Source of the DNA: Sclerodactyla briareus
Lineage: Eukaryota > Echinodermata > Holothuroidea > Dendrochirotida > Sclerodactylidae
Assembly (NCBI GenBank): GCA_026419785.1
Contig: JAODTK010005560.1
Span: 1 to 64,000, forward strand
Direction: 5' to 3'
DNA length: 64,000 nucleotides
Under the pieces are notes generated by a model. That model was not told the DNA's origin, did not search any database, and saw only the letters and a list, made by a program, of their open reading frames with translations. Below, in pieces: positions 5,020-44,830 of the stretch (within the stretch, counting starts at the first letter, position 1; each line of letters opens with the position of its first letter). The position numbers and the translations under genes were made by a program.

Positions 5020-5485
5020 CAACGTAATTCCTGTGATGGATGTCGACTAAACTTAGACACATTGATGTTTTATTGACCCATGGAAACATGTTTGAACCTT
5101 GTGAGATCAAGTCAAGGTCATTGAATGGGCATATAGGCCATTATGCGTAGATTTCAAAATGTTTCCTAACAAAGTTTGGTGCACAGCTGCTGTTGTCTAG
5201 TCATAATGATGATCTAACAGCTATACCTTCAGGTTTTTCAGGTATTTTTGTCCGATTCCCAACTTGGGCCGAGGCCCATTTTTTTTGAAAATTCCACAAA
5301 AGGTACTTCAAATGCATCTCCTCCACAAGCTTCTATTGATTTTCTTCAATGTTACAATGATGGTCCCTTGATTAGAGGGCCATTGGGGTGTTCATGAATA
5401 TTGGGCCCAGGGCCAAATTTGGGCCATAGCTCCATTATAATGAATACTACTGCAAAATCATGTAGAGTTTGTTGCAACATGAGGG
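5020..5485 (+). repeat. Dispersed 'paragraph' repeat, copy 1
   Basis: This stretch carries the ordered phrases GGTCATTGAA, ATAGGCCATTATG, TTTGGTGCACAGC, GGGCCGAGGCCCA, GTACTTCAAATGCAT, AGAGGGCCATTGGGG, TTGGGCCCAGGGCC and TACTGCAAAATC. The same phrases in the same order occur again at 43980-44830, and the first part also between about 41880 and 43010. It is an old interspersed repeat without coding capacity. Confidence 0.65.
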
Positions 5486-8655: not shown

Positions 8656-8861
8656 AATACGGGATCAGGATAATACAGCTGGGACGACCCCAAGTACTGT
8701 ATGGCTTGTGAGGTGTGAATGATAACTACCCCAATGAATGGATCAAGCCTATAAGTGTATTATGGTTCCAATAATGATACATAAATAATCTGCATGGCTT
8801 ATATAGCCACTTCAACGTTGTAGACGTTCTCAAATCTTACAGATAATGAATACATTGAACT

Positions 8862-8985
8862 GTTTTGAGGGTCAGGTCAAAGGTCAGGACTGGGGTCAAC
8901 AGAGGACAAAGTTTGAAAACCATGTGAACATGATAAGCCCCAAATTCTTAGTCACCAATCGGCAGAGGGAAAATTATAATTAGGC
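8862..8985 (+). repeat. Solitary diverged copy of the ~311-bp satellite family
   Basis: GGGTCAGGTCAAAGGTCAGG, GACAAAGTTTGAAAACC and GTGAACATGATAAG occur in the same order as in the array at 28120-30430. Similar shorter traces lie near 17085-17170. Confidence 0.5.
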
Positions 8986-15490: not shown

Positions 15491-16377
15491 ATGAGAAATT
15501 TTAGTTGACTTTAGCCTGACTCCCTATGTGGAACAAAAGGGAGCTTCATAGTAATGCTTGGAGATTTCAGTCCAACATTCAGTACTTGTTGTTTTTTATC
15601 CACCTAGTGGCTACTGTTGTGGCAGACATTGTCTCCCAGATCTCATTTTTAATGTTATGCTGTCTATGTCTATTGATAATTGAACCAGTATACGTCAACT
15701 GGATATGTTAAATAACTACCCTCTCTGCAGTTCTGCTGAAGCAGCGTAGCTTAGTATCATAAGATAGTTCATACAAAAATGAGCATACTCTATGCCATCG
15801 ACTATTTTAGGAAAGAAAAACCCTAATTGACACCAAATTGGTGTCTCATATTTGGAGGGCACGCAACCCGGGATTGATAAAGCGCCATCATTTGGTTGAT
15901 TTGACAGAGTCGTATGTAGTCATTTTGCTTAGTAGCAGGCATATTCCGCAATGACAGGACTACAAAAGACTGCGGAGGAGCCTATAATGTTTACCAGATT
16001 CTGCTGATAACTGCGCTTCTTGTACATGTCACAAGACCAGTCACTCCCTCTCGCCTACTTTAAACACAGCCTCAACCTATCCTCATGCTTTACCTACCAC
16101 CTCCCCCCCCCCCCCCCCCCCATCAAAATATTCTGGAGTAAGAGAGGACAATGGTGGTTGCCAGTTGAGTAGGTTGATTTTGCAAGAATGAGACTGTTTG
16201 GCTAAAAAGGAGGGGGGGGGGGGGTACGTCATTCGTAGACCCAAAACCGTGTTTTCGGGGATACCAGTACTGTTTAAAAAAAAGCAGTACTGTTTAAAAA
16301 AAAAAGCAGCTGAAGTTAAGAAATAGGGTGTTGATCAATTAAATGGAAATATTTGAATATTCTTTCATTATTGACAG

Positions 16378-16634
16378 GTTCCTTGGTCCCCTTTAATGCT
16401 GTTATTGCCAGTACAGTCCCCCTTGGGGGAGGGGTCTCTAGCTCGGCCTCGTTGGAGGTAGCTACGTACACCTTCCTGGAGCAGCTGGACCCGTCCAAGC
16501 CACAGCCGGATCCCAGGGCCAGGGCCCTGGCATGTCAGAAGGGCCGAGCATGACTTCCCCAAATGATGACTGTGGTATCAGGACCAGTTAATCAGCGATG
16601 GGGGGATGGGGCCGAGCACTGCTCATGACTGCAG
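16378..16634 (+). CDS. galk1: Galactokinase, exon 3 with the ATP-binding GHMP motif
   Basis: The exon follows TTATTGACAG and starts in the phase left by exon 2, giving G-S-L-V-P-F-N-A-V. It then contains [19 protein letters not shown], the GHMP-kinase phosphate-binding loop (PxGGGLSSSAS), almost identical to GALK1. From about 16540 the frame shifts, but the encoded residues remain traceable: AEHDFP, then a degraded PCGIMDQFIS block holding the catalytic Asp region, then ALL..DC before GACTGCAG/GTATGG. The frameshifts (at least two in 90 bp) interrupt the reading as given. Because both splice sites are intact and the homology continues through the breaks, sequencing error is more likely than a pseudogene. 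The adjoining 7.66-kb intron contains the GC-rich block. Confidence 0.93.
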
Positions 16635-18190
16635 GTATGGTCTGCAGGTTTAGGATATTTTGGTCTCCTCCATCATCTGGTTTGGGTCATCTCATTGATG
16701 TATGTGGGACAAGACAATTGTTTTGTTTTTATCTCTCCGCAAACCTTCCTGTACTGGAGCTTGGTGTGACCTAGCTACGGTACTTGCTGTGGTGTTTCAC
16801 GTATTGCGTACACTTCCACGATACTGGCTAGCGCTGTTACCTTGTGGTTCTTCGTCTGTTGTACGGGTTTTCCGAGCCCTCGGCCTCTACCCTCCTCCCC
16901 CTCCCGCCATCCCTACCCTTCGGTTTCCTTCCCCCCTGCCCTTCTTCCCAGGGGTTTGGAGGATTGTCAGGGTCTCCTTTAGCATCTTGGCCACACAGCG
17001 GGCGGCAGAAAAGCCACCGTGGGAGAGAAATTCATCTATGTGGGGTAGATTCATGAATCACAGATTCCTATCCCTTTGTTTTTGAGATTTGGGGGTCAGG
17101 TGAGAGGTCAAAGTGAAAAATCCTTATACAAGTAAATAGGATGAAGTTCAGAATGTATAATGAGGAAGGTATAGAAACCCTAATGCTTGATCAAGATAGC
17201 AAAATTTACTGTGGAAAATGGGAAATTTGCACACTAGATATGTTTACTGATAAAGCGTGGTACATATCCCATGATATTTGTCATTTTGTATCATGCAGCC
17301 AATTCCTTTAGCTCCATATATCAAAAGATTAACAGGACACAGCTCGGGGAAGGAGGTTGGCAGGCCCGCTGCAGTTTATGGCTTTTGTGGTTGCACACTC
17401 CAGACCTTACACACTTGAGCCAGCGCTGCTTCCATGATAACTGGAGGGAGGCAGCCATTAAACGTCAGTATCTGGTGTCCCTAAACAGGTTCTAACAGCT
17501 ATTAGTCCCATCTGGCGCAAGGGCCTAGTGATTATGATTTTCCAGCCTGAGGGGTGGTTTGTGCCTGCAGGCTAGGGAGAGTGGGGCCAACAGTTTCTGT
17601 TCAGGAGCTCACCAGGAGACAAGGGTTATATGGTAGCTACAGTCTTGTGTTGAGCTAAAGGCTACTGGCTTCATGTGCTGGCAGTAGGCGTCCAAAAAAC
17701 GAGCGGAGAATCACTAAGCTTTTCGTTTTTTTTATTCATGAGACATCACCGGGAAGACACCCGCGCTAATTGTTGCACCACTCGCTACCAGACGACAAGC
17801 CCGATGACATGTCCCTCTCCGATCGGTAGCTTGGACATGTTCAGGACAGTAGTTTGGGTATAGCAATGAGATACAAACAATGTTACAACTGCCGCCTTAT
17901 TTTTCCTATAAGTCTCCGCCATTTGGAATACACCTCATCCACAAACTGCAATTATTTTATTCATCCATCTCTCTTCCATTCATATGGTCCCGCCTCGACT
18001 GAGTGAGGCAGAAGAGGGTCTGCTGTCTTTTGCCCCCCCCCCCCCCTCATCCTCCCTTCCCAGCTGGGCTGCCCCTTCAGCATGATTTATGACTAGTAAC
18101 AGGACTATATAAGGCCACTGATTGGCAAGGCCTGGGTTCTGCTATGTGGGGTGTACATTGCACAAGTGATTGTGAACTGTTTATTGTTAA
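16635..18190. other. Galactokinase intron, left part, nothing recognised
   Basis: No domain, splice pair or RNA gene was found. A 127-codon ORF at 16702-17085 is Leu/Pro/Arg-rich and has no recognisable domain. A weak trace of the AGGTCA satellite family lies at about 17085-17170. Confidence 0.4.
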
Positions 18191-18235: not shown

Positions 18236-18388
18236 CATTCCTTCATGGGCGTAATCAGTTAATCTATTCAGATATTCAATTACCCATATTGGACCCTGCA
18301 CCCCACCCCCACGCCATTGAACATTTGGCATTAACACAAAAGTCCGGGTGGCCACCCCATCGCCCTTCTCTGTTGCCAGACGTTTCAT
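18236..18388 (+). repeat. Left arm of a large inverted repeat bracketing the GC-rich block
   Basis: The stretch from CCCATATTGGACCCTGCACC through CACGCCATTGAA, TAACACAAAAGTC and CATCGCCCTTCTC matches the reverse complement of 23603-23715, where CCCTGCACCCCACTC, GCGCCATTGAAA, TAACACAAAAGTC and CCATTGCCCTTCTC appear in the same order. The match is about 100 bp at roughly 80% by eye. Confidence 0.8.
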
Positions 18389-19099
18389 CTACATTGAGCA
18401 TCGTGGCTTAGGGAAATTTGTCAGAAATTCACCCTTTAGATTTAGTCTTACGACTCCAATCCTCGTTTTATCATTTGGATAAAACCTGTCTAAAGTTGAT
18501 TTTCACCTATTCCAAACGACTTTTTCTTGGGGATTAGGTCGTTTTTGAAGGAACCTATTACTTCTTCTCGATCTCGGATTTGCCGTAAGTCTTTGTTTAG
18601 CTAAGCTGCACCTACCACTGCAGTATTGTGAACAACGTTCCCTACTGCATAAATCCAGTGCGTGTGACATTCGGCCCGTATCTGTTCGTGCAGCAGGGCT
18701 GGGACTTGTTGTAGGGGATCCCTGCCTGGCGCCGCCCGCCCCTCTTCCCTTTTTCCCCCCCCTCCCTCTTCCCCCGGGTTCCCCTCCCTACCTTCCCTTC
18801 CCCTCCCCACATTCCCTTCCCCGTTACCTGGGTTGGGGGTTGCCGCGCGCAGCGCTAGGGATTTTAGTTACGTAAATCGGTGCGAGGAGGGGGAAGGGAA
18901 TGTGAGTAAGTACAGTTTGTGGGAGTCCTGTAGGATATGGTTTTCATGCATGAAATGTCGGCTCGTGCAATTGCATGCGAGCCGTATCCTGTGATGTTCA
19001 ATGCCCATAGTTTCCATGTTCGTGGAGATGGGTTCCAGCATGATTATAGGCTCGTTGCCTTCGGGTTTGAGCTGTAGTGCGCAATGTTTGAGTGGTTAC

Positions 19100-19570
19100 G
19101 CAGTTTCCACGTGCTATATATCGACTTTATGCCAGTGGAGGGGTCGTGGTCATAGAGAACCTCTCTCAGCGGCCCCTTCCCAGGTAGGGAAGTGGGCCGT
19201 TTCCATCTCCGATCGTCAATGTTGATGTGACTATGCTTACCATTACATTGCATTCACACAGTTACCACTTCTCCCAGTTATGGAGAAATGGGAGCTCACA
19301 CCTTTGATAGCCGATCTTTAATGTGTCACTTATGTATTGCCACTTTAACATGTATTGACTCTATGTCCGTGAGCGGGGGTTCATGGACGTAGAGTGGGGA
19401 ACTTCCTCAGCGGCCTTCTCCTAGTTGGAGAAAGGGGACGCTTGTACCTGGGTTCGCCGTTGTGTCTGGTATTTCTTATGATGCTACGTGACTTTTATGT
19501 CCGTGAACAAGGGTTCATGGACGTAACAGATTCCTCAGCGCCTTTCTAGCAGGTATGAGAAAGCGTGCTG
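19100..19570 (+). repeat. Three units each with a double hairpin
   Basis: Each unit has stem-loop A, best seen in the third as TATGTCCGTGAAC...GTTCATGGACGTA, a 13-bp stem with one or two G:T or mismatched positions. Stem-loop B follows CTCAGCG, as CCTTCTCC..GGAGAAAGG in the second unit and CTTCCC..GGGAAG in the first. Units start near 19128, 19348 and 19492. The loops vary but the stems are partly preserved, so the structure may be under selection at the RNA or cruciform level. Confidence 0.65.
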
Positions 19571-19979
19571 TTTTTGTTTTTTGTACGCTCATCAAGTTGT
19601 CCCCACTGCTGGCAAGACTCGAGAGGTAGCGGGTATGTTCTTGCGCCGAGGCCCGTAAGGCCCGGTGCGGACATCACGCGTCGGAAGTGAAGTAGGCAGG
19701 GGATCGTCGCCAGAGTGGGAAGTCAGCATCGTCAGTGTCCTCGAGAAAGACCCCGGGAAGGAAGAAGGGAGAGGTCGGACAGAAGACTTCGAGCTCGGGG
19801 CCCCTTAGGGGACAGGGGGGTGTATTAAGTCAGGTTAGAGCCGCTTCCCCGGGCTGGCGCTTTGGATCATCCCGGTCATAGACATGGGCCGGGTGATCCT
19901 AAAAGCCCGCAATTCGGCTTCGTGTCTCGCACACCGACTTTGTCGGGGCCGGTTCCGGCTCGGTAGCCGTACACCCCCG

Positions 19980-20360
19980 TCCGAGCCGGAGGCCCTCCCG
20001 GCGCGGAGAGAGCCAACCAACCGGGTCGGACGGGTAAGCCTCGGTTGGACTGCGGTTACCCGCCCGTCACGGCCGGGGGCCCCTCCCAGCACGGGAGGGA
20101 AGCCGTACCCAAACGGGTCCGGCGGGGGTGATCCTCGGTGGGACTGTGGTTCCGCCCGTCACGGGCCGGGGGACCCCTTGCCGGTGGAGGAGACGACCAA
20201 ACCAGGTCGGCCGGGTGAGCCTCGTTGGATCGGTTACCCGCCCCGTCACGGGCCGGGGGCCCCTCCCGGCGTTGAGGAGCTGACCCAACCGGGCCGGCCG
20301 TGGTGATCCTCGGTTGGACTGAGGGAACCCGCCCGTCATGGTCGGTGCGGGTGCCGTGCA
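19980..20360. repeat. ~90-bp GC-rich tandem array, four units
   Basis: The anchor CCCGTCA(C/T)GG appears at 20063, 20155, 20242 and 20332 (spacing 92, 87, 90). Each is followed by GGCCGGGGG.CCCC and preceded by CCTCG(G)TTGGA. Long opposed ORFs here arise from the lack of A/T-rich stop codons. Confidence 0.85.
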
Positions 20361-21779
20361 CCAATCCCGGCCGGCCGGCCCTGGACCGGACGGGGACGGG
20401 CCGGGGGTCGGGCCACTGGACGACGGACCACAGCCGGCCGCGCGGGGGCGTTTCAGACCAAATTGCGGGTCCGGCAGACACGGTCCATGGGGTTGCTGCC
20501 AGACCACGCGACCCAGAAGTATCACGGTCCATACGGGATCGCCAGCAGCCTCTTCTCACGTCAACCATGCGAGTTGAAGCGGACCAAGACCTCCTAGAGT
20601 CCCCTACCCCGGAGGTACAGGACCTTTCTCCCTTGCCTTCCTCGGACGTTCACGTTTCCCTCGGACAGCGAAGGAGCCGCAGGGCTCACCAGGGCAAACA
20701 CAGTGATCTTGGAAAGGGGTCATAATGGGGGGGGGGGTCGTCGTAGCTCCTCCCATCCTACACTAGAGATAGCTATATCTCCGCCGCGGAAAAAGTCGAG
20801 CACGCTGGATATGGACCAAAAGACCGGCCGACGAATCAGCCGGCCCGGCGCGGGTGCTGACACTCAGTCCGGGCGGAGGGACCTGTCCCGGCGAGGAGGG
20901 TGCCGATCGGGCAAGTGCCGGCGCTTTTGCCGTATCTCTCGTCCGAACCGGAGGCCCACTCTCAGCGAGGAGGGAGCCGAAAGACCCGGTTCCTGTGAGA
21001 TGCGGAACACCCAGAGGCCTCTCCCGACGCGGTGGGACCCGACCCGTATTTGCCGTCACGGGGGTCCACCCGTCACGGCGGGGCGGCAGGATTCGATTTA
21101 GCATCCCGACGCGGTTGGGGGATCCAGGGCCCGTCCAAAGTCACCGTCACATGGGGCGTAAGCTGGAACGCATGGGAGCTTCCCACACCAGAGGATTAGG
21201 GCCACTCCTTGGAACACGCGCATCCTTCGTTAGCTTGTAGCCAGGGGAGATATAGATGCAGCAGGGCCACTGCCGTCGCTGGTCATTCTTACTTAGTTTC
21301 TCCCGCGGTTGGTGGGCGGCCCCCGGGAGACCCGGTATGGAGAAACACTCCCAAGGGGGAGCGTTAAACGCCATCCGGCGGATTATCGCTTTCAGGAGCC
21401 GCTGGAGAAGCCCCTGCTCCGGCCCTTTAGGTCGGACGACAGCCCACCCCGCGGTCACCGGGGAGCCTCTGTGCGGACTCTGGGGGACAAAACGACAGTC
21501 ATCCAGGCTCAGGCGGCGGGATGGACTGAGCAACGAGAAGAAAGCTCGAACACGTAGTCTACGCGGACGCGTTCCTCCTGGACCAGGTCTCAGCACAGCC
21601 CAAGTGGCGAGAGCATCCTCTCTACCAGGCCCGTGACGGCTCGCTCGAACGACCAACTGCTCACTACCTATGGACAGAACCGTTAGCCGCCGTGCTCTCT
21701 CCCCGCCGGGCCCACAACCGAATTAGCCGTGCAGGCCCCCCTGTAGCAACCCGGCATGGTTGGGGCTCCCAGCCTTGGC

Positions 21780-23200
21780 CTGGCCCATGGAGCCACTAGA
21801 GCCGAAGGCGGCTCTTCAGAGCCGTGAATCGTTCTTTCCCGGGCCCTTCCGAACCCAGGGGTAGACTCCCCCGAGCCAGGAGTTCGCTGATCTTCCAGTC
21901 ACCAGAGCCGTGGACCGACTCGCCCGGAGCCGTGGATGGGCTATCCCGGCTCTCCAGAGCGGCGGGCCGACTCTTTCCGCCTGAACGAGACGAGATGGTG
22001 CTTCCAGGCGCCTTGACCGACTGTCCGATCCTCGGAAGCCAGATCGGCTCTTCTGAGCCCTGGGGGCGGCCCCGCCGGCCTCCTGATGCTAGGGCCCAAC
22101 TCGTTTTGCTCCGCGGCCAAGATCGGTCTTCCGCTCAGAGGCTGGCTCGTCCGTCTCTCTCCGAGCATGGGTCGCCCAACGGCTCTCCAGAGCTGCGGTC
22201 CGACTCCTCTGCCCTCGGGACATCGCGAGCGGCTATCCCGACTCTCCAGAACCGTGGGCTGACTCTTCCGACCCTCCTCAATCGGCTCTTGCCATGGGCC
22301 GGGGTTTCCCGGCTCTCGGCGCCGTGGGCCACTCTTCGGACCTCCTAATGGCATCTCCCGGGCCAAGGAGTCGGCTTCCCGGCTCTCCGGCCGTGGGCCG
22401 ACTCTTTTGGCCCTCCGGATCGGCTCTTCCGCCGTAGGTTGGCTTCCCGGCTCTCCGGAGCCCTTGGCGGCTCTTCCGGACCTCCTTAATTTAATGGCTC
22501 TTCGTCCGGCCGGCGGGAGCCGACCCAAACAGGGCCGGCCGGGGTGGGGCGATCTTCGGACCCCCCGTAATCAGCTCTTCTGGCGTGGGTAGGCTATCCG
22601 TCTACGAGAGGGGCCGACTCCTCCGGCCCTCCGGATCGGCTCTTCCGCCGTAGGGCCCAACTCTCCCAGACCTCCTGATCGTCCTCTTTCCGGAGTGGGG
22701 CCGACTCGTCAGAGCTCGATCGGCTCTCACAAGCAGTGGGCCGAATCCTCCCGACCTGATCAGATCTCCCACCGTGGATCGGCTTCCAGCCTTCGGCTAC
22801 CTTTCGGAGTACGATGGGCTCTCCGAGCCCTGGCCGACTCTGCGGCTCGAGCCACGGCCGCGTACTTGGTCGCGGGCGGTTTCCAGCTTCCCTAGCCGCG
22901 GACTGACTCTTCCGGCATAAATTTCGCCGGCTCGTGGGGGTGCCGTAACACCAGAGGACGCGTCGTAAACCAGATCAGCTCTCCCCAGCCGTTAAACGGC
23001 TCGGGGCTCGGGGTGGATCGGCTCTCCGGAGCCTCGGACTGGCCCCCCACAAAAGCCGTTGACCGACTCTCCCGTTCGGGTCTCCGAGCCTCGGTGCATT
23101 TTTTCCGGCCATCCGGAGCTGATCACTCTCCGAGGCTGAGGGTCCGCTCTCCCGTTTCTCCAGAACTGTCCATCGCTCTCCGGAACCGGTATGGCTCTTT
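21780..23200. repeat. ~70-bp GC-rich degenerate array
   Basis: A unit like GGCTCTCCGGAGC..TGGGC-CGACTCTTCCGG-CCTCC-GATC recurs many times. Clear examples of the GGGCC.ACTCTT anchor sit near 22258, 22327, 22386 and 22609. The palindrome CTCCGGAG recurs. The two strands carry complementary long ORFs that I regard as artefacts. Confidence 0.8.
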
Positions 23201-23415
23201 GGAACAAGGGCACCTATCCGGGCGTGTGCTGCCCGCGGCGCGTCAGCACGTTGCCGGGGCGGTCCGCACGCTAGCACGAGGCGGGTATGGGCCTACCCTC
23301 CATGGCACGGATGGCACTCGCTGAAGTAGACTCTTCCCGAGAAATGTCCGCCTCGTCTACCCCATGTATCTGCCACGTGATGGCACCGACCACCGCCACA
23401 GTGCCCGTGCTAGTC

Positions 23416-23519
23416 TGGTGCAGGGCCAATATGGGGTAAGTTGAATATCTGACAATAGATTCAACAAATGCACTGGTTTGTGAATCTGTGAAGTATGAAT
23501 ACTTACCCATATTGGACAC
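23416..23519. repeat. ~100-bp palindrome at the right edge of the GC block
   Basis: GGCCAATATGGGGTAAGT at the left pairs with ACTTACCCATATTGG at the right. Inner AGATTCAACAAA pairs with TTTGTGAATCT, leaving a short loop. The outer arm is the same sequence as the edge of the 18236 repeat, so the palindrome appears to be two copies of that edge in head-to-head orientation. Confidence 0.8.
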
Positions 23520-23602
23520 TCCCGCCCAACCGTCCCCACTCTCCGGGCCATCAGGGGCGTCCTCCTCTGTGGATTTGCGGGCCTTGCCCCAATTCTAGCG
23601 AC

Positions 23603-23775
23603 GCATCGCTGTGAACAAGAGAAGGGCAATGGGTGGCAACCCTGACTTTTGTGTTATTGCCCGGGTTTCAATGGCGCGTGAGTGGGGTGCAGGGCCAATA
23701 GGAGTTGAGTATTCTACTTCACAGATCACAAACAGTGAAGTTGAAAGGGGGGAGGGGGGTTTTGTTGACTTTATG
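23603..23775 (-). repeat. Right arm of the large inverted repeat
   Basis: Reverse complement of the 18236-18388 sequence. Key shared words are GCCATTGAA, TAACACAAAAGTC, GGGTTGCCACCC and TTGCCCTTCTC. Beyond it the sequence returns to ordinary AT-rich intron. Confidence 0.8.
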
Positions 23776-24297: not shown

Positions 24298-24483
24298 ATC
24301 ACTTGAGGCCCAGCTGATCCCTATTTTGAATCCCTACATCATGAGTTCCTGGTCGCAAACATCCAATGTCAGCACGAGCTGAAACGGGAGCGAGTACGCC
24401 AGCAGAAAGAGGAGCAAGTGCTATGATGCTGCAGGCTCCTCGGCATAAGAGTCTACGAGATGCTACAATCGAGGAACTCGAAG
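24298..24483 (+). CDS. galk1: Galactokinase, exon 4
   Basis: Exon 3 ends GACTGCAG, and this exon opens ATCACTTGAG after CGCCATAG, so the junction reads D-C-R-S-L-E, exactly as in GALK1. Conserved pieces follow in three frames: SLEAQLIP, SNV, GSEYASRK, CYDAAG and KSLRDATIEELE. These correspond to the GALK1 stretch from SLETSLVP through NSNVRH..GSEYP.R..QC to SLRE...EELE. At least three single-base indels are needed to read through. The donor is GAAG/GTGAGT. The following intron to 30972 is 6.5 kb and must contain, or have lost, one more exon (the region RARHVV..E to SHRSLR), which I could not locate. Confidence 0.9.
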
Positions 24484-28119: not shown

Positions 28120-30430
28120 ATGTGTGTGACGCCGGCTTGTGAACAAATAACTTGACCCCACCGGATTGATGGAGATCCCACTTGGTCTGTGTGTTCCCCA
28201 TGAAGGTACATGACGCTATTGTTTTGGGGTCAGGTCAGAGTTCATGCTGAGGTCACCAGAGGTCAAAGTCAGAGAAAAACCTTGTTGAACACGATAGAGT
28301 CCAGAAGGTTGGGTCTGGATCGGGTTCAAATTTTGATGTGTAGTTTTTTGGGGGGAGTACAGAAACCCTTATGTTATTGGATGTAGGTCGGGGGTGAATT
28401 TTGAGTCAAACATAGAAATTTGTGAAAAGTCAATAATGTTGCCAATTTTGGCTTGTGAACACGATAACTCGCACCCACACTGTATCGGATGGAGCTATAC
28501 TTGGTATGTGGTTCCCCATGATGATTTCATAAACCCTATGGTTTTTGGGGTAGGTCGGAGGTCCTTTGAGGTCACCAGAGCGTCAAAGTCTCTGTATGAA
28601 AACCTTGTGAACACGATAAGTCAGATGGTTGGTCTGACCCGGTTCAAATTGGTGGGTAGCTGTCTTATGGGGAGTACCGGAAACCTTTTGTTTTTTATAG
28701 GTCGGGAGTGACTGTTGGTCAAAAGAGAAATTTGTAAAAAGCCAATAATTTGGCCAATTTTTGGCTTATGAACATGATTAACTCGCCCCACTGGCTGGAT
28801 GAAGCTCATGACTGGTATGTTTGTGTCCCATGATGAGTACATGAACCCTATTGTTTTGGGGGCAGCGTCAGAGGTCAGCTGAGGTCACCAGAGGTCAAAG
28901 TCTGAACCTTGTGAACACGGATAAGTCCAGAGTGGTTGGTACGACCCGGTTCAAAACTCTGGTGTGTAGCTTTCTTTGGGGAGTAGTACCGGAACCCTCC
29001 TATTGTTTTTAGTTATAGGTCGGAGTGAATTTGGTCAAAATAGAAAATTGGTAAAAAGCCATTAATTTGGCCAATTTTGGCTTGCGAACATGATACCTCC
29101 ACCCCACTGGATGGATGAAGCTCAGACTTGGTATCTGTGTGGTCCCCAGATGATACATGAACCATATTGTTTTGGGCGTCAGGTCAGAGGTTCATTTGAG
29201 GTCACCAGCAGTCAAAGCAGAACACTTGAACACGATAAGGCCAGAATGTTGGGCTGATCGGGTTCAAATTTGGTGTGTAGCTTATTATGGGAGTTACAGA
29301 AACCTATTGTCTTGGTGTAGGTCGGGGGTGGGAATTTTGGTCCAAAAAATAGAAAATTTGTGAAAAGTCAATATTTGGCAATGTGGCTTGTGAACACGAT
29401 AACTCGACCCCACTTGGAATGGATGGAGCTCATACTTGGTAGGTGTGTTCCATGAGGACGTTCATGACCCTATGGTTTGGGTCAGGTCATAGGTCCTTTG
29501 AGGTCACCAGAGGTCAAAGTCTGACAACCTTGTGACCACGATAGTCCAGAATGGTGGTTGACCCGGTTCAAATTGGTGTGTACTTTCTTATGGGGAAGTA
29601 CGGAACCCTATTTTTTTCGTATAGGTCGGGATGAATTTTTGGTCAAAATAGAAAATTGTAAAAAGACAATAATTTGGCCAATTTTGGCTTGTGAACATGA
29701 TCAACTCGACCCACTTGGATTGGATGAGCTCATACTTGGTATGTCCTATTGTGTGTCCCCGTGATGAGACATGAAACCCTATGTTTGGGGGGTCAGGTCA
29801 GAGGTATCTGAGGTCACCAGAGGTCAAAGTCAGAAAACATGGAACACGATAAGTCCAGAATGGTTGGTCTGATCGGGTCAATATTTTGGTGTGTAGCTTC
29901 TTATGGGGAGTACAGCGACCCCTATTGTTTCTTGTGTAGGTCGGGGGTGCATTTTGTTAAAAATTGAAAATTGTGAAAAGTCAATAATTTGGCCATTTTG
30001 GGCTTGTGAACACGATAACGATCGACCCACACTTGGAGGATGGAGATCTCATCCTTGGTATGTGTGTTCCCCATGATGAGAAAAGGAACTCTAATTTTTT
30101 GGGGTCAGGTCTGAGGTTCACCAGAGATAAAGTCTGAAACCTTTGTGAACACTATACATAAGTCCAATAGGTTGGTCTGATCAGGTTCAAATTTGGGGTG
30201 TAGCTTTCTTCAGGGGGATTCAGAACCCTATGTTTTTGGTATAGATCGGGGTAATTTTGGACAACAAAATGGAAAATTTGTGCAAAGTCAATAATTCGAC
30301 CAAATTTTGGCTTGTGAACACGATAACTCGACCCCACCTGGACAGGGATTGAGCTCATCCCTTGGTATGGGTGTATCCCCATGATGATACGTAACCCTAG
30401 TTTTTGGGGGTCAGGTCAGAGTATCATACA
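28120..30430 (+). repeat. ~311-bp tandem array, about 7.5 units, with AGGTCA direct repeats
   Basis: The anchor CTTGTGAACACGATAACTCG or a variant starts at 28136, 28452, 28765, 29081, 29397, 29698, 30003 and 30311, so spacing is 301-316 bp. Each unit has the order GAACACGATAA..TCGACCCCA, TGGA..GAGCTCATACTTGGTATGTG, GTTTTGGGGTCAGGTCAGAGGT, GAGGTCACCAGAGGTCAAAG, GGTTCAAATTTGGTGTGTAGC, CCTATTGTTTT..TAGGTCGG and GCCAATTTTGG. Units differ by many small indels. It lies in the galactokinase intron and has no coding capacity. Confidence 0.92.
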
Positions 30431-30972
30431 GAGGTCATACAGTGGTACACTCTCCACTTGTCCTTGTGTCTGCTTTATGGTTTGTCCGAAGAGTCAAGGA
30501 ATCACTACGCCTTTGGCTTTCTGGTTATTAAAGGTGACAATCAGCCCGCAATTTGATGTTGAAAGTGACTCTTGTGAACGTCAGAATTTATTCAGCACTG
30601 ATGACAGTTGGGATATGGGCAGCTGTTAGCACTGTTCAGTTGGACTTGACCTTCAGATAAGTAGAGCATTTAATAACAACAAAATTTACCACATGGACTG
30701 TGCAACCCCCCATACTAAGTCGAGAGGCTTCTGGCAATTACACAAATGTGGGGAAGTGGTCCACCGCCATCGCCATTCTTTACTGCACGCTAGTCGTTAA
30801 TTCGTCAAGTTTTTGGCTCTGATATGATAGCCCAATAATTGTCCTAGTAGCGTTTTCCTGGTGTCTACCAACTTACTGGAGTTCACTGAAATTTATCAGC
30901 AGTATCACCACCTTTCCATAAATTCATAGATTCACAGATTCCAAACCCGTTCTGTTTGGTGATTACTTGCAG

Positions 30973-43979: not shown

Positions 43980-44830
43980 CCACCTTTAGGTCAAGGCCAA
44001 ATGGCATTAAAGGGGCCCAATAGGCCAATAATGAAAACTGCAAAACGCTACTTCTCCTACAAGTTTGGTGCACAGCGCTGATATTCGGTCATAATGATGG
44101 TCTATCAGCCAGCGTACCTTCGGGGTGTTCAGGAATTGTTGGTCCAATGTCCCACTTGGGTCCGAGGACCCACTTTATGAAATTTCACACAGTGGTACTT
44201 GAAATGCTTCTTCTCCTACAAGCTTCCATAATTTCTTCAAAGTTACATGTAATGTTCCTTGAATAGAGGGCCATTGGGGGTGTTCAGGAATTTTGGGCCC
44301 AGGGCCCAGTTGGGCCAAAGGCCATTCATGTGAAATACCACAAAATCTTGTAACTCCCACAAATTTAGTTGTACAGTGCTTGTATGGTCTAATAGACGTA
44401 CCTTTGGGGTGTTCAAGACTATTTGTTCCAAGGTTCGACTTGAGCCCGAAGGCCCATTATTTTATGATTTTATTTCACACAATGGTACTTGAAATGCATT
44501 TCCACCCCACAAGCTCCTTGGTAAAGGTCCTTCGGTGGAGGGCAATTGGGGTTGTTCAGGAATTCTGGGCCCAGTTTGGGCCCTAGGGCTCATCATATAA
44601 AATACTGCAAAATCTTGTATCCCCCACAAATCTAGTTGCACAATGCTGATGACCGGTCATATTATGGTCTAATGCCCAGGAATTTGAGACCTAAGGTCCC
44701 GTGTGGGTCCGAGGGCCCATCATGTGGAATTGCACAAAATGTTCTCCTCTGACAAGTTTTTGTGCAAAGTACTGACATTCGGTAGAATAATGATGTCTAA
44801 CAGTCGTACCTTCGTACCTGTTCTGCCTCC
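43980..44830 (+). repeat. Dispersed paragraph repeat, copy 2, internally duplicated
   Basis: Same phrase order as 5020-5485, but repeated roughly every 290 bp: GTACTTGAAATGC starts at about 44196 and 44486, and TTGGGCCCAGGGCCC or TCTGGGCCCAG follows each. Frames are not conserved. Confidence 0.7.

Follow-up and report, generated by a model that had tools for sequence, protein, structure and literature searches.

A GC-rich block in a Sclerodactyla briareus contig is very probably a non-autonomous DIRS-type retrotransposon

This analysis revealed that a GC-rich block in the window, a stretch of 64,000 nucleotides from the genome of the holothuroid Sclerodactyla briareus, is very probably a non-autonomous DIRS-type retrotransposon whose sense strand is the plus strand. 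The entire element measures approximately 5.5 kb and extends from 18261 to 23768 (plus strand, right edge approximate), as defined by the edges that it has in common with other copies; the limits of 18236 and 23715 proposed in a previous sequence-only reading were close and have been corrected on this basis. Among 15 complete copies, lengths range from 1.4 to 6.4 kb, and 13 of the copies fall between 5.4 and 6.4 kb. In our best reading, the element has kept its ends and a 2.5-kb leader, and 2.6 kb of GC-rich non-coding DNA replaces gag-pol-YR. It probably moves with the proteins of longer relatives in the same genome.

The window copy is bounded by a left inverted terminal repeat (ITR; arm A, 18261-18400, plus strand), which corresponds to the dispersed left end of the family, and a right one (arm D, 23603-23715, minus strand). 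Comparison of the window with itself showed an inverted match of 83.5% over 85 bp between 18287-18371 and 23618-23700 (E 2e-16), with weak similarity reaching to approximately 170 bp. The inverted repeats of ~100 bp previously described as bracketing the block are real and represent ITRs. Queries with the right end also recover many left ends, and queries with the left end many right ends. In addition to the bracketing arms, two arm copies absent from the earlier description are found at 23405-23540; in reverse complement, this segment reads as the right end of the element followed directly by its left end. The arm comparison divides it into a left internal complementary region (copy B, 23405-23463, minus strand), corresponding in reverse complement to the left end, and a right one (copy C, 23464-23540, plus strand), corresponding likewise to the right end, the limits of both being approximate. 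Of the 13 complete copies examined for this internal region, 12 have it (eight out of nine, plus L051-L054; L016 and L037 were outside the test), with scores of 72-166, compared to shuffled maxima of 27-37. The exception, L031, showed no internal complementary region even with its right end reset; its match breaks off within copy B, so the region was apparently lost. A terminal extension is present at one end only, measuring ~26 nt in nine aligned right ends; it was looked for in 27 aligned left ends and not seen. The alignment of the nine right ends places it at 23716-23768 (plus strand) in the window copy, where it is split by an extra tract of ~20 bp that is C/T-rich on the minus strand.

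With regard to target-site duplications, none of the 15 complete copies showed exact direct repeats of more than 5 bp abutting the element, and the number of duplications is zero or one in 15. L032 exhibits a weak flank repeat of ~120 nt, possibly the trace of a very old duplication. What looked like duplications at L016 and L034 were rejected, as both copies lie in tandem arrays whose repeats continue across the join once the element is omitted. The duplication count covers copies with both edges in view; it omits L004-L006, L010-L014, L018-L028, L039, L040, L042 and L044 and, on the same ground, L045, L047, L050, L065, L066, L069, L070, L071 and L074. Together, the internal region, the right extension and the duplication-free complete copies amount to the DIRS1 layout. 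A published description gives DIRS1-like elements ITRs of 66-316 bp, internal complementary regions summing to 85-130 bp, a right extension of 9-75 bp and no target-site duplication (PMC3266345). By the same description, the window family resembles these elements (Dictyostelium DIRS-1 and its animal relatives) in its ITRs, right extension and duplication-free insertion, and it has the same pairing of internal complementary regions, which in DIRS1-like elements meet at the circle junction (PMC3266345). PAT and Ngaro, as described there, have the tyrosine recombinase in common (PMC3266345), but their ends are split direct repeats, whereas those of the window family are inverted repeats. The earlier remark that no ordinary transposon matches the block is a fair one as regards its body; its ends, however, fit DIRS1-like retrotransposons.

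A large MITE or a DNA transposon of the foldback type, moved through its inverted repeats by a cut-and-paste transposase, would be compatible with the inverted ends of ~140 bp, the dispersed copies and the absence of detectable proteins. Foldback elements and MITEs are non-coding and carry inverted ends and internal repeats, as does the window family. Nevertheless, this family lacks the fixed short target-site duplication in its 15 complete copies, its internal copy of the joined ends has no role in such a model, and recombinase-like frames adjoin this same internal region, which makes a transposon of this type very improbable. A DNA transposon with terminal inverted repeats was our first idea and was discarded, the fixed duplication being missing.

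The DIRS-type assignment also draws on longer relatives in the same genome, which share both ends and some of the leader with the window copy and have, directly preceding the same internal region, a tyrosine-recombinase-like frame, a likeness to DIRS1-like elements. This frame gave at least 80 matches among 150 scored candidates, some of them at one place. The internal region lies 45-122 bp downstream of the frame in five of the six recombinase loci cut out, and at C1327, C2310 and C3135 the left arm, the recombinase frame and the right end all point the same way. The ends of the long copies were read separately and their middle was inferred from spacing, none being read end to end. The GC-rich leader of the window copy (18401-20800, plus strand) is partly common to the left end of C2310 (L007) and C1327 (L008): 18261-18614, 19598-20075 and 20246-20800 align with L007 at 74-79%, and 18261-18913 and 19666-19824 with L008 at 73-76%. 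L007 and L008 had been considered as truncated copies, which was rejected because both are left halves of long copies. The subsequent non-coding GC-rich stretch (20801-23372, plus strand), including a degenerate array of ~70 bp, occupies the presumed gag-pol-YR position of the long copies and had no counterpart in the long-copy pieces compared. It is followed by a remnant (23373-23404, plus strand) that aligns with L062, L063 and L064 at the end of the recombinase frame, the frame position being assigned by eye.

Domain searches on the long relatives gave limited matches. L058 matches Phage_integrase (PF00589) with an E-value of 0.0016 and 18.7 bits, below the curated cut-off of 27.1 bits; it was alone in this among the four recombinase pieces, as L055, L057 and L059 gave no match. 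A whole-genome search for PF00589 yielded one match, L049, which bears none of the family's ends, and a PDB profile search with the recombinase fragment returned unrelated weak hits and no recombinase. Frames of the long copies (L055) contain what we take, by eye and from characteristic motifs, to be reverse transcriptase and RNase H; Pfam detected neither of the two on long-copy pieces. L057 appears to be rearranged, since its pol-like and recombinase-like frames lie on opposite strands.

In the core of the window copy, a six-frame Pfam search detected no domain, whether gag, RT-RNase H(-MT) or tyrosine recombinase. A codon-phase signal that was significant by chi-square proved only weak by permutation: 4 of 34 windows reached p ≤0.03, the smallest value being 0.006, and none remained after correction for 34. 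Given that no proteins were detected, we have chosen to file the window copy as a non-coding derivative rather than as an autonomous DIRS. In contrast to DIRS1-like elements, the family shows no detectable gag, pol or recombinase and carries 2.6 kb of GC-rich arrays instead, along with a ~2.5-kb leader that contains hairpins and the 87-bp array. LARDs and TRIMs are non-coding derivatives of LTR retrotransposons, with large or small bodies between the parent's ends, and are thought to be mobilised in trans. The window family likewise has a non-coding body between its parent's ends, but these are DIRS-type inverted repeats accompanied by an internal complementary region rather than direct LTRs.

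The abrupt GC-richness noted earlier was confirmed: every 250-bp bin across 19.5-23.75 kb has a GC content of 55-74%, whereas the flanks shown are mostly at 34-52%, with a few bins up to 56%. Both tandem arrays of the sequence-only reading are present. The one given as 90 bp has a unit of 87 bp and 3.7 copies (20010-20338, plus strand, TRF), and the 70-bp one is degenerate, with a unit of ~70 bp at ~21.9-23.1 kb (families D1-D3), and falls below TRF reporting at score 50. The proposed hairpins hold for the leader portion at 18836-19640 (plus strand; folding z -6.55 versus 20 shuffles), where the 120-nt windows at 19081, 19141 and 19321 have z under -3. In the remainder of the block, 120-nt windows fold on average about as expected from composition, and two isolated ones, at 22321 and 23401, come near z -3.5. 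RNAalifold on 22 copies of the hairpin-rich portion gave a covariation term of about nil, and a tRNA scan returned nothing. Layered GC-rich arrays are a feature of rDNA spacers, and this resemblance had suggested a captured rDNA intergenic spacer, perhaps spread later. Such an origin is unsupported and extremely unlikely: neither the window nor the block has an Rfam structured-RNA match, the block is dispersed and has mobile-element ends, and its left half is common to long copies with a recombinase-like frame. If the private 20.8-23.4 kb matched rDNA, only the origin of the filler would be explained.

The private middle (20820-21440) has 104 candidate places genome-wide, and all 40 that were scored match, the window's own included; the left end is likewise dispersed (694 candidates, 40 scored). 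Both edges and the inner order recur in the copies read. Block, right end and middle were recovered at many places. Of the three earlier suggestions, the large inverted-repeat mobile unit is the right one, the block being one copy of a family that is dispersed through the genome and keeps constant edges. An assembly chimera could account for the abrupt change in composition, and frameshifts in a galactokinase exon suggest a noisy assembly; this recurrence, with identical edges and inner order wherever read, refutes a chimeric join, to which we attach a negligible probability. The exon in question, at ~16377-16500, is confirmed by matches to PDB galactokinases (E 3e-11). A second galactokinase exon, at ~24.34-24.48 kb, was discerned by eye and was not recovered by searches, so a single confirmed exon stands behind the reported location within a galactokinase intron.

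For the non-autonomous DIRS-type element, we propose that reverse transcriptase from the long relatives would copy its RNA. The missing tips would be templated by the internal complementary region, which would also join them into a circle; the relatives' recombinase would insert this circle where a short stretch of sequence matches, without creating a duplication. Signals for use in trans, such as those of the parent for packaging or translation, presumably lie in the 2.5-kb leader.

Fragments that keep only the left end behave differently from complete copies. Ten places were added to find such right-truncated copies, namely contigs or positions at which the private middle had found no match. 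Target-site duplications of 19-101 bp abut the left tip in 9 of 13 right-truncated copies, and in six of eight junctions examined the element match continues 1-5 bases beyond the junction. These features would suit a retroposed structured RNA, inserted by target-primed reverse transcription only, with its 3' end at the window's left end. That model leaves unexplained the duplication-free complete copies with a fixed right end, the internal complementary region and the ends shared with recombinase-frame copies, and is very unlikely. Pure target-primed retroposition, first drawn from L002 and L003, was rejected as the main account once the internal region and the recombinase-frame relatives emerged. 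Within the DIRS-type reading, the contrast between left-end fragments and complete copies suggests a second insertion route. We tentatively consider it possible that the family uses two: duplication-free recombinase insertion of circles, and target-primed copying of incomplete intermediates. In the latter, an antisense RNA, or a minus-strand cDNA whose 3' end is the left tip, might be joined to a target 3' end and then copied, producing right-truncated copies with 19-101-bp duplications. To our knowledge, such a side path has not been described in DIRS elements; a search of a limited literature collection, by title or abstract opening, found none.

On these findings, a block that had looked undescribed becomes a defined mobile element in the form of a large, non-coding derivative of DIRS. 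The DIRS insertion model has been described as not fully proven (PMC5633606). As complete and truncated copies differ in their duplications, this model is open to direct test, for which the family supplies natural empty sites. It also supplies a set of fragments starting exactly at the left tip, which would be unexpected if recombinase-mediated insertion of circles were the sole route.

This study revealed that the GC-rich block suspected in the window (18261 to about 23768) is real, as judged from the composition profile. The sequence-only reading had also described two tandem arrays, hairpins and two inverted arms. Both arrays are present, the unit of the first being 87 bp rather than 90 bp and that of the degenerate second about 70 bp. 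Hairpins were upheld for one hairpin-rich part (z -6.55), elsewhere folding was on average that expected from composition. The inverted arms were recovered in the window's self-comparison, but a sensitive comparison raised their number from two to four: copy A from 18261 on, copy B at about 23405-23463 (inverted), copy C at about 23464-23540 (direct) and copy D at 23603-23715 (inverted). All six arm pairs scored above all 200 shuffles, A-C barely so (46 versus 43). At their tips A resembles B and C resembles D, and in its inner part A matches D.

With regard to the surroundings, the CpG observed/expected ratio of the block is 0.74-0.95 over 19-24 kb and stands out within the CpG-depleted left part of the window. 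The ratio is mostly about 0.35-0.7 across 1-44000 and 1.0-1.27 at 52-59 kb, a contrast of the kind that mosaic methylation gives in invertebrates. A 294-aa open frame at 54573-55454 matches the rhodopsin-family seven-transmembrane receptors (7tm_1, E 3e-12). Other repeats comprise a tandem array at 28134-30437 (unit about 312 bp, 7.4 copies at 75%), short stretches of which match 8861-8953, and a repeat at 5172-5464, 44061-44352 and 44384-44619, the first two places being 77% alike. An exon-like stretch at about 24340-24480, the second after that of galactokinase, is visible by eye only.

The block belongs to a dispersed family. The searches covered the 3171 contigs (319 Mb) of the genome from which the window comes, and in all family counts, which include the window's own place, match status is established for the scored places only: arm A gave 694 candidate places (40 scored), the block 187 (31 scored; matches mostly 70-79% identical), the right end 611 and the private middle, the stretch peculiar to the non-coding family (query 20820-21440), 104, with 40/40 scored places matching for each of the last two. 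Eight fetched block copies show the window's order of pieces, and common edges were found in 27 aligned left and 9 aligned right ends as well as at loci L051-L054. As block, ends and middle thus recur with shared edges, the chimeric join in the assembly that had been proposed is excluded. In the left part, the median identity is 78.9% (best 85.9%) across the 153 pairs with more than 900 aligned bp. Some of the family's activity looks recent, because L003 and L004 share 98.7% identity over their 150-bp left ends. The galactokinase exon at 16377-16640 reads well at first and then, by eye, seems to change frame repeatedly over some 150 bp, as would an exon in an unpolished assembly. Such frameshifts suggest that assembly errors inflate the divergence between copies.

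The ends of this family are of the DIRS kind, a known kind. Of the first 9 copies tested, 8 contain an internal region, lying about 233-365 bp in from the right end, whose sequence is that of the copy's right end fused to the left end of the same copy, in reverse complement; four further complete copies also have it, giving 12/13. The exception, L031, yielded no such region in either of two tests and seems to have lost that part, because its match to the element stops inside copy B. The 9 aligned right ends carry an extension of about 26 nt, which the 27 aligned left ends lack. In none of 15 complete copies do exact direct repeats of more than 5 bp abut the element, and in local alignment of their flanks only L016, L034 and L032 exceeded every shuffle. 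The flanks of L016 and L034 are tandem arrays (144-bp and 40-bp units) that are continuous across the join once the element is removed, and these are therefore natural empty sites. Repeat lengths and layout agree with those described for DIRS1-like elements (PMC3266345, PMC8969392).

Thirteen right-truncated copies keep the left end and lack the right, with both edges in view. Direct repeats abut the left tip in nine of them: L002 (about 68 bp), L003 (41), L017 (28), L038 (32), L041 (101), L048 (26), L067 (19), L068 (51) and L072 (72), all lengths being approximate. That of L067 is marginal (score 28 versus a shuffled maximum of 26), and in L017 and L041 the right repeat copy begins 39 and 35 nt beyond the mapped end of the element. 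None was found in L043, L046, L073 or the rearranged L015 on contig C341, in which the left part leads into an inverted stretch from close to the right end, resembling a twin-priming or foldback rearrangement. Among complete copies the count is 0/15, or 1/15 with the ambiguous L032 (Fisher's test, p 0.0001 and 0.001, respectively; 0.004 against 1/15 without L067), p values to be read knowing that the classes were set after the first cases were seen. Truncation points vary, and in 6 of 8 copies examined the element match extends 1-5 bases beyond the junction, an overrun of 1 or 2 bases being possibly due to chance. These direct repeats do not fit the main DIRS account. Ordinary target-primed copying that starts from sense RNA cannot yield such copies, because in the sense strand their left tip lies on the 5' side; we infer a template of antisense RNA or minus-strand cDNA.

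The window family has no detectable proteins, whereas its relatives seem to have them. No Pfam match was found in six frames of the element core, and no codon phase survives correction. Most indels between the window copy and eight others are single-base, with multiples of three making up 8% of those shorter than 10. L055, fetched by its right end, has a different body, in whose frames we recognise what we take to be motifs of DIRS reverse transcriptase, RNase H and recombinase, which Pfam did not recognise. Its recombinase piece gave 80 listed matches from 150 scored candidates. Six loci were cut out, including L055's own place, and in five of them the matched piece is followed, 45-122 bp on, by the internal complementary region, which L061 lacks there. 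The L058 frame matches Phage_integrase at E 0.0016, its 18.7 bits falling short of the curated cut-off (27.1), and pieces of L055, L059 and the rearranged L057 gave no match to it. The only PF00589 match of the whole-genome search, L049 on contig C1216 (E 6e-6), has none of the family's ends and does not match the recombinase piece.

On contigs C1327, C2310 and C3135, a left arm lies 6-10 kb upstream of a recombinase-like frame in the same orientation, with the internal region and the right terminal repeat coming after the frame. L007, the left locus on C2310, shares its leader with the window copy up to window position 20800. Right after it an ATG from 2987 on the reverse strand begins a frame of 53 codons, open until the locus ends, probably the start of a putative gag of the long copies. 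Likeness to the long copies returns at 23373-23377 (in L058 only from 23399), by eye within the final codons of the recombinase frame. Given these two limits, the window copy appears to be a DIRS element in which 2.6 kb of GC-rich non-coding DNA has replaced gag-pol-YR (YR, tyrosine recombinase). Retrotransposons in general commonly have non-coding derivatives. The terms "non-autonomous DIRS" and "nonautonomous DIRS" were found in no paper of the literature searched, Repbase and subscription journals lying outside it.
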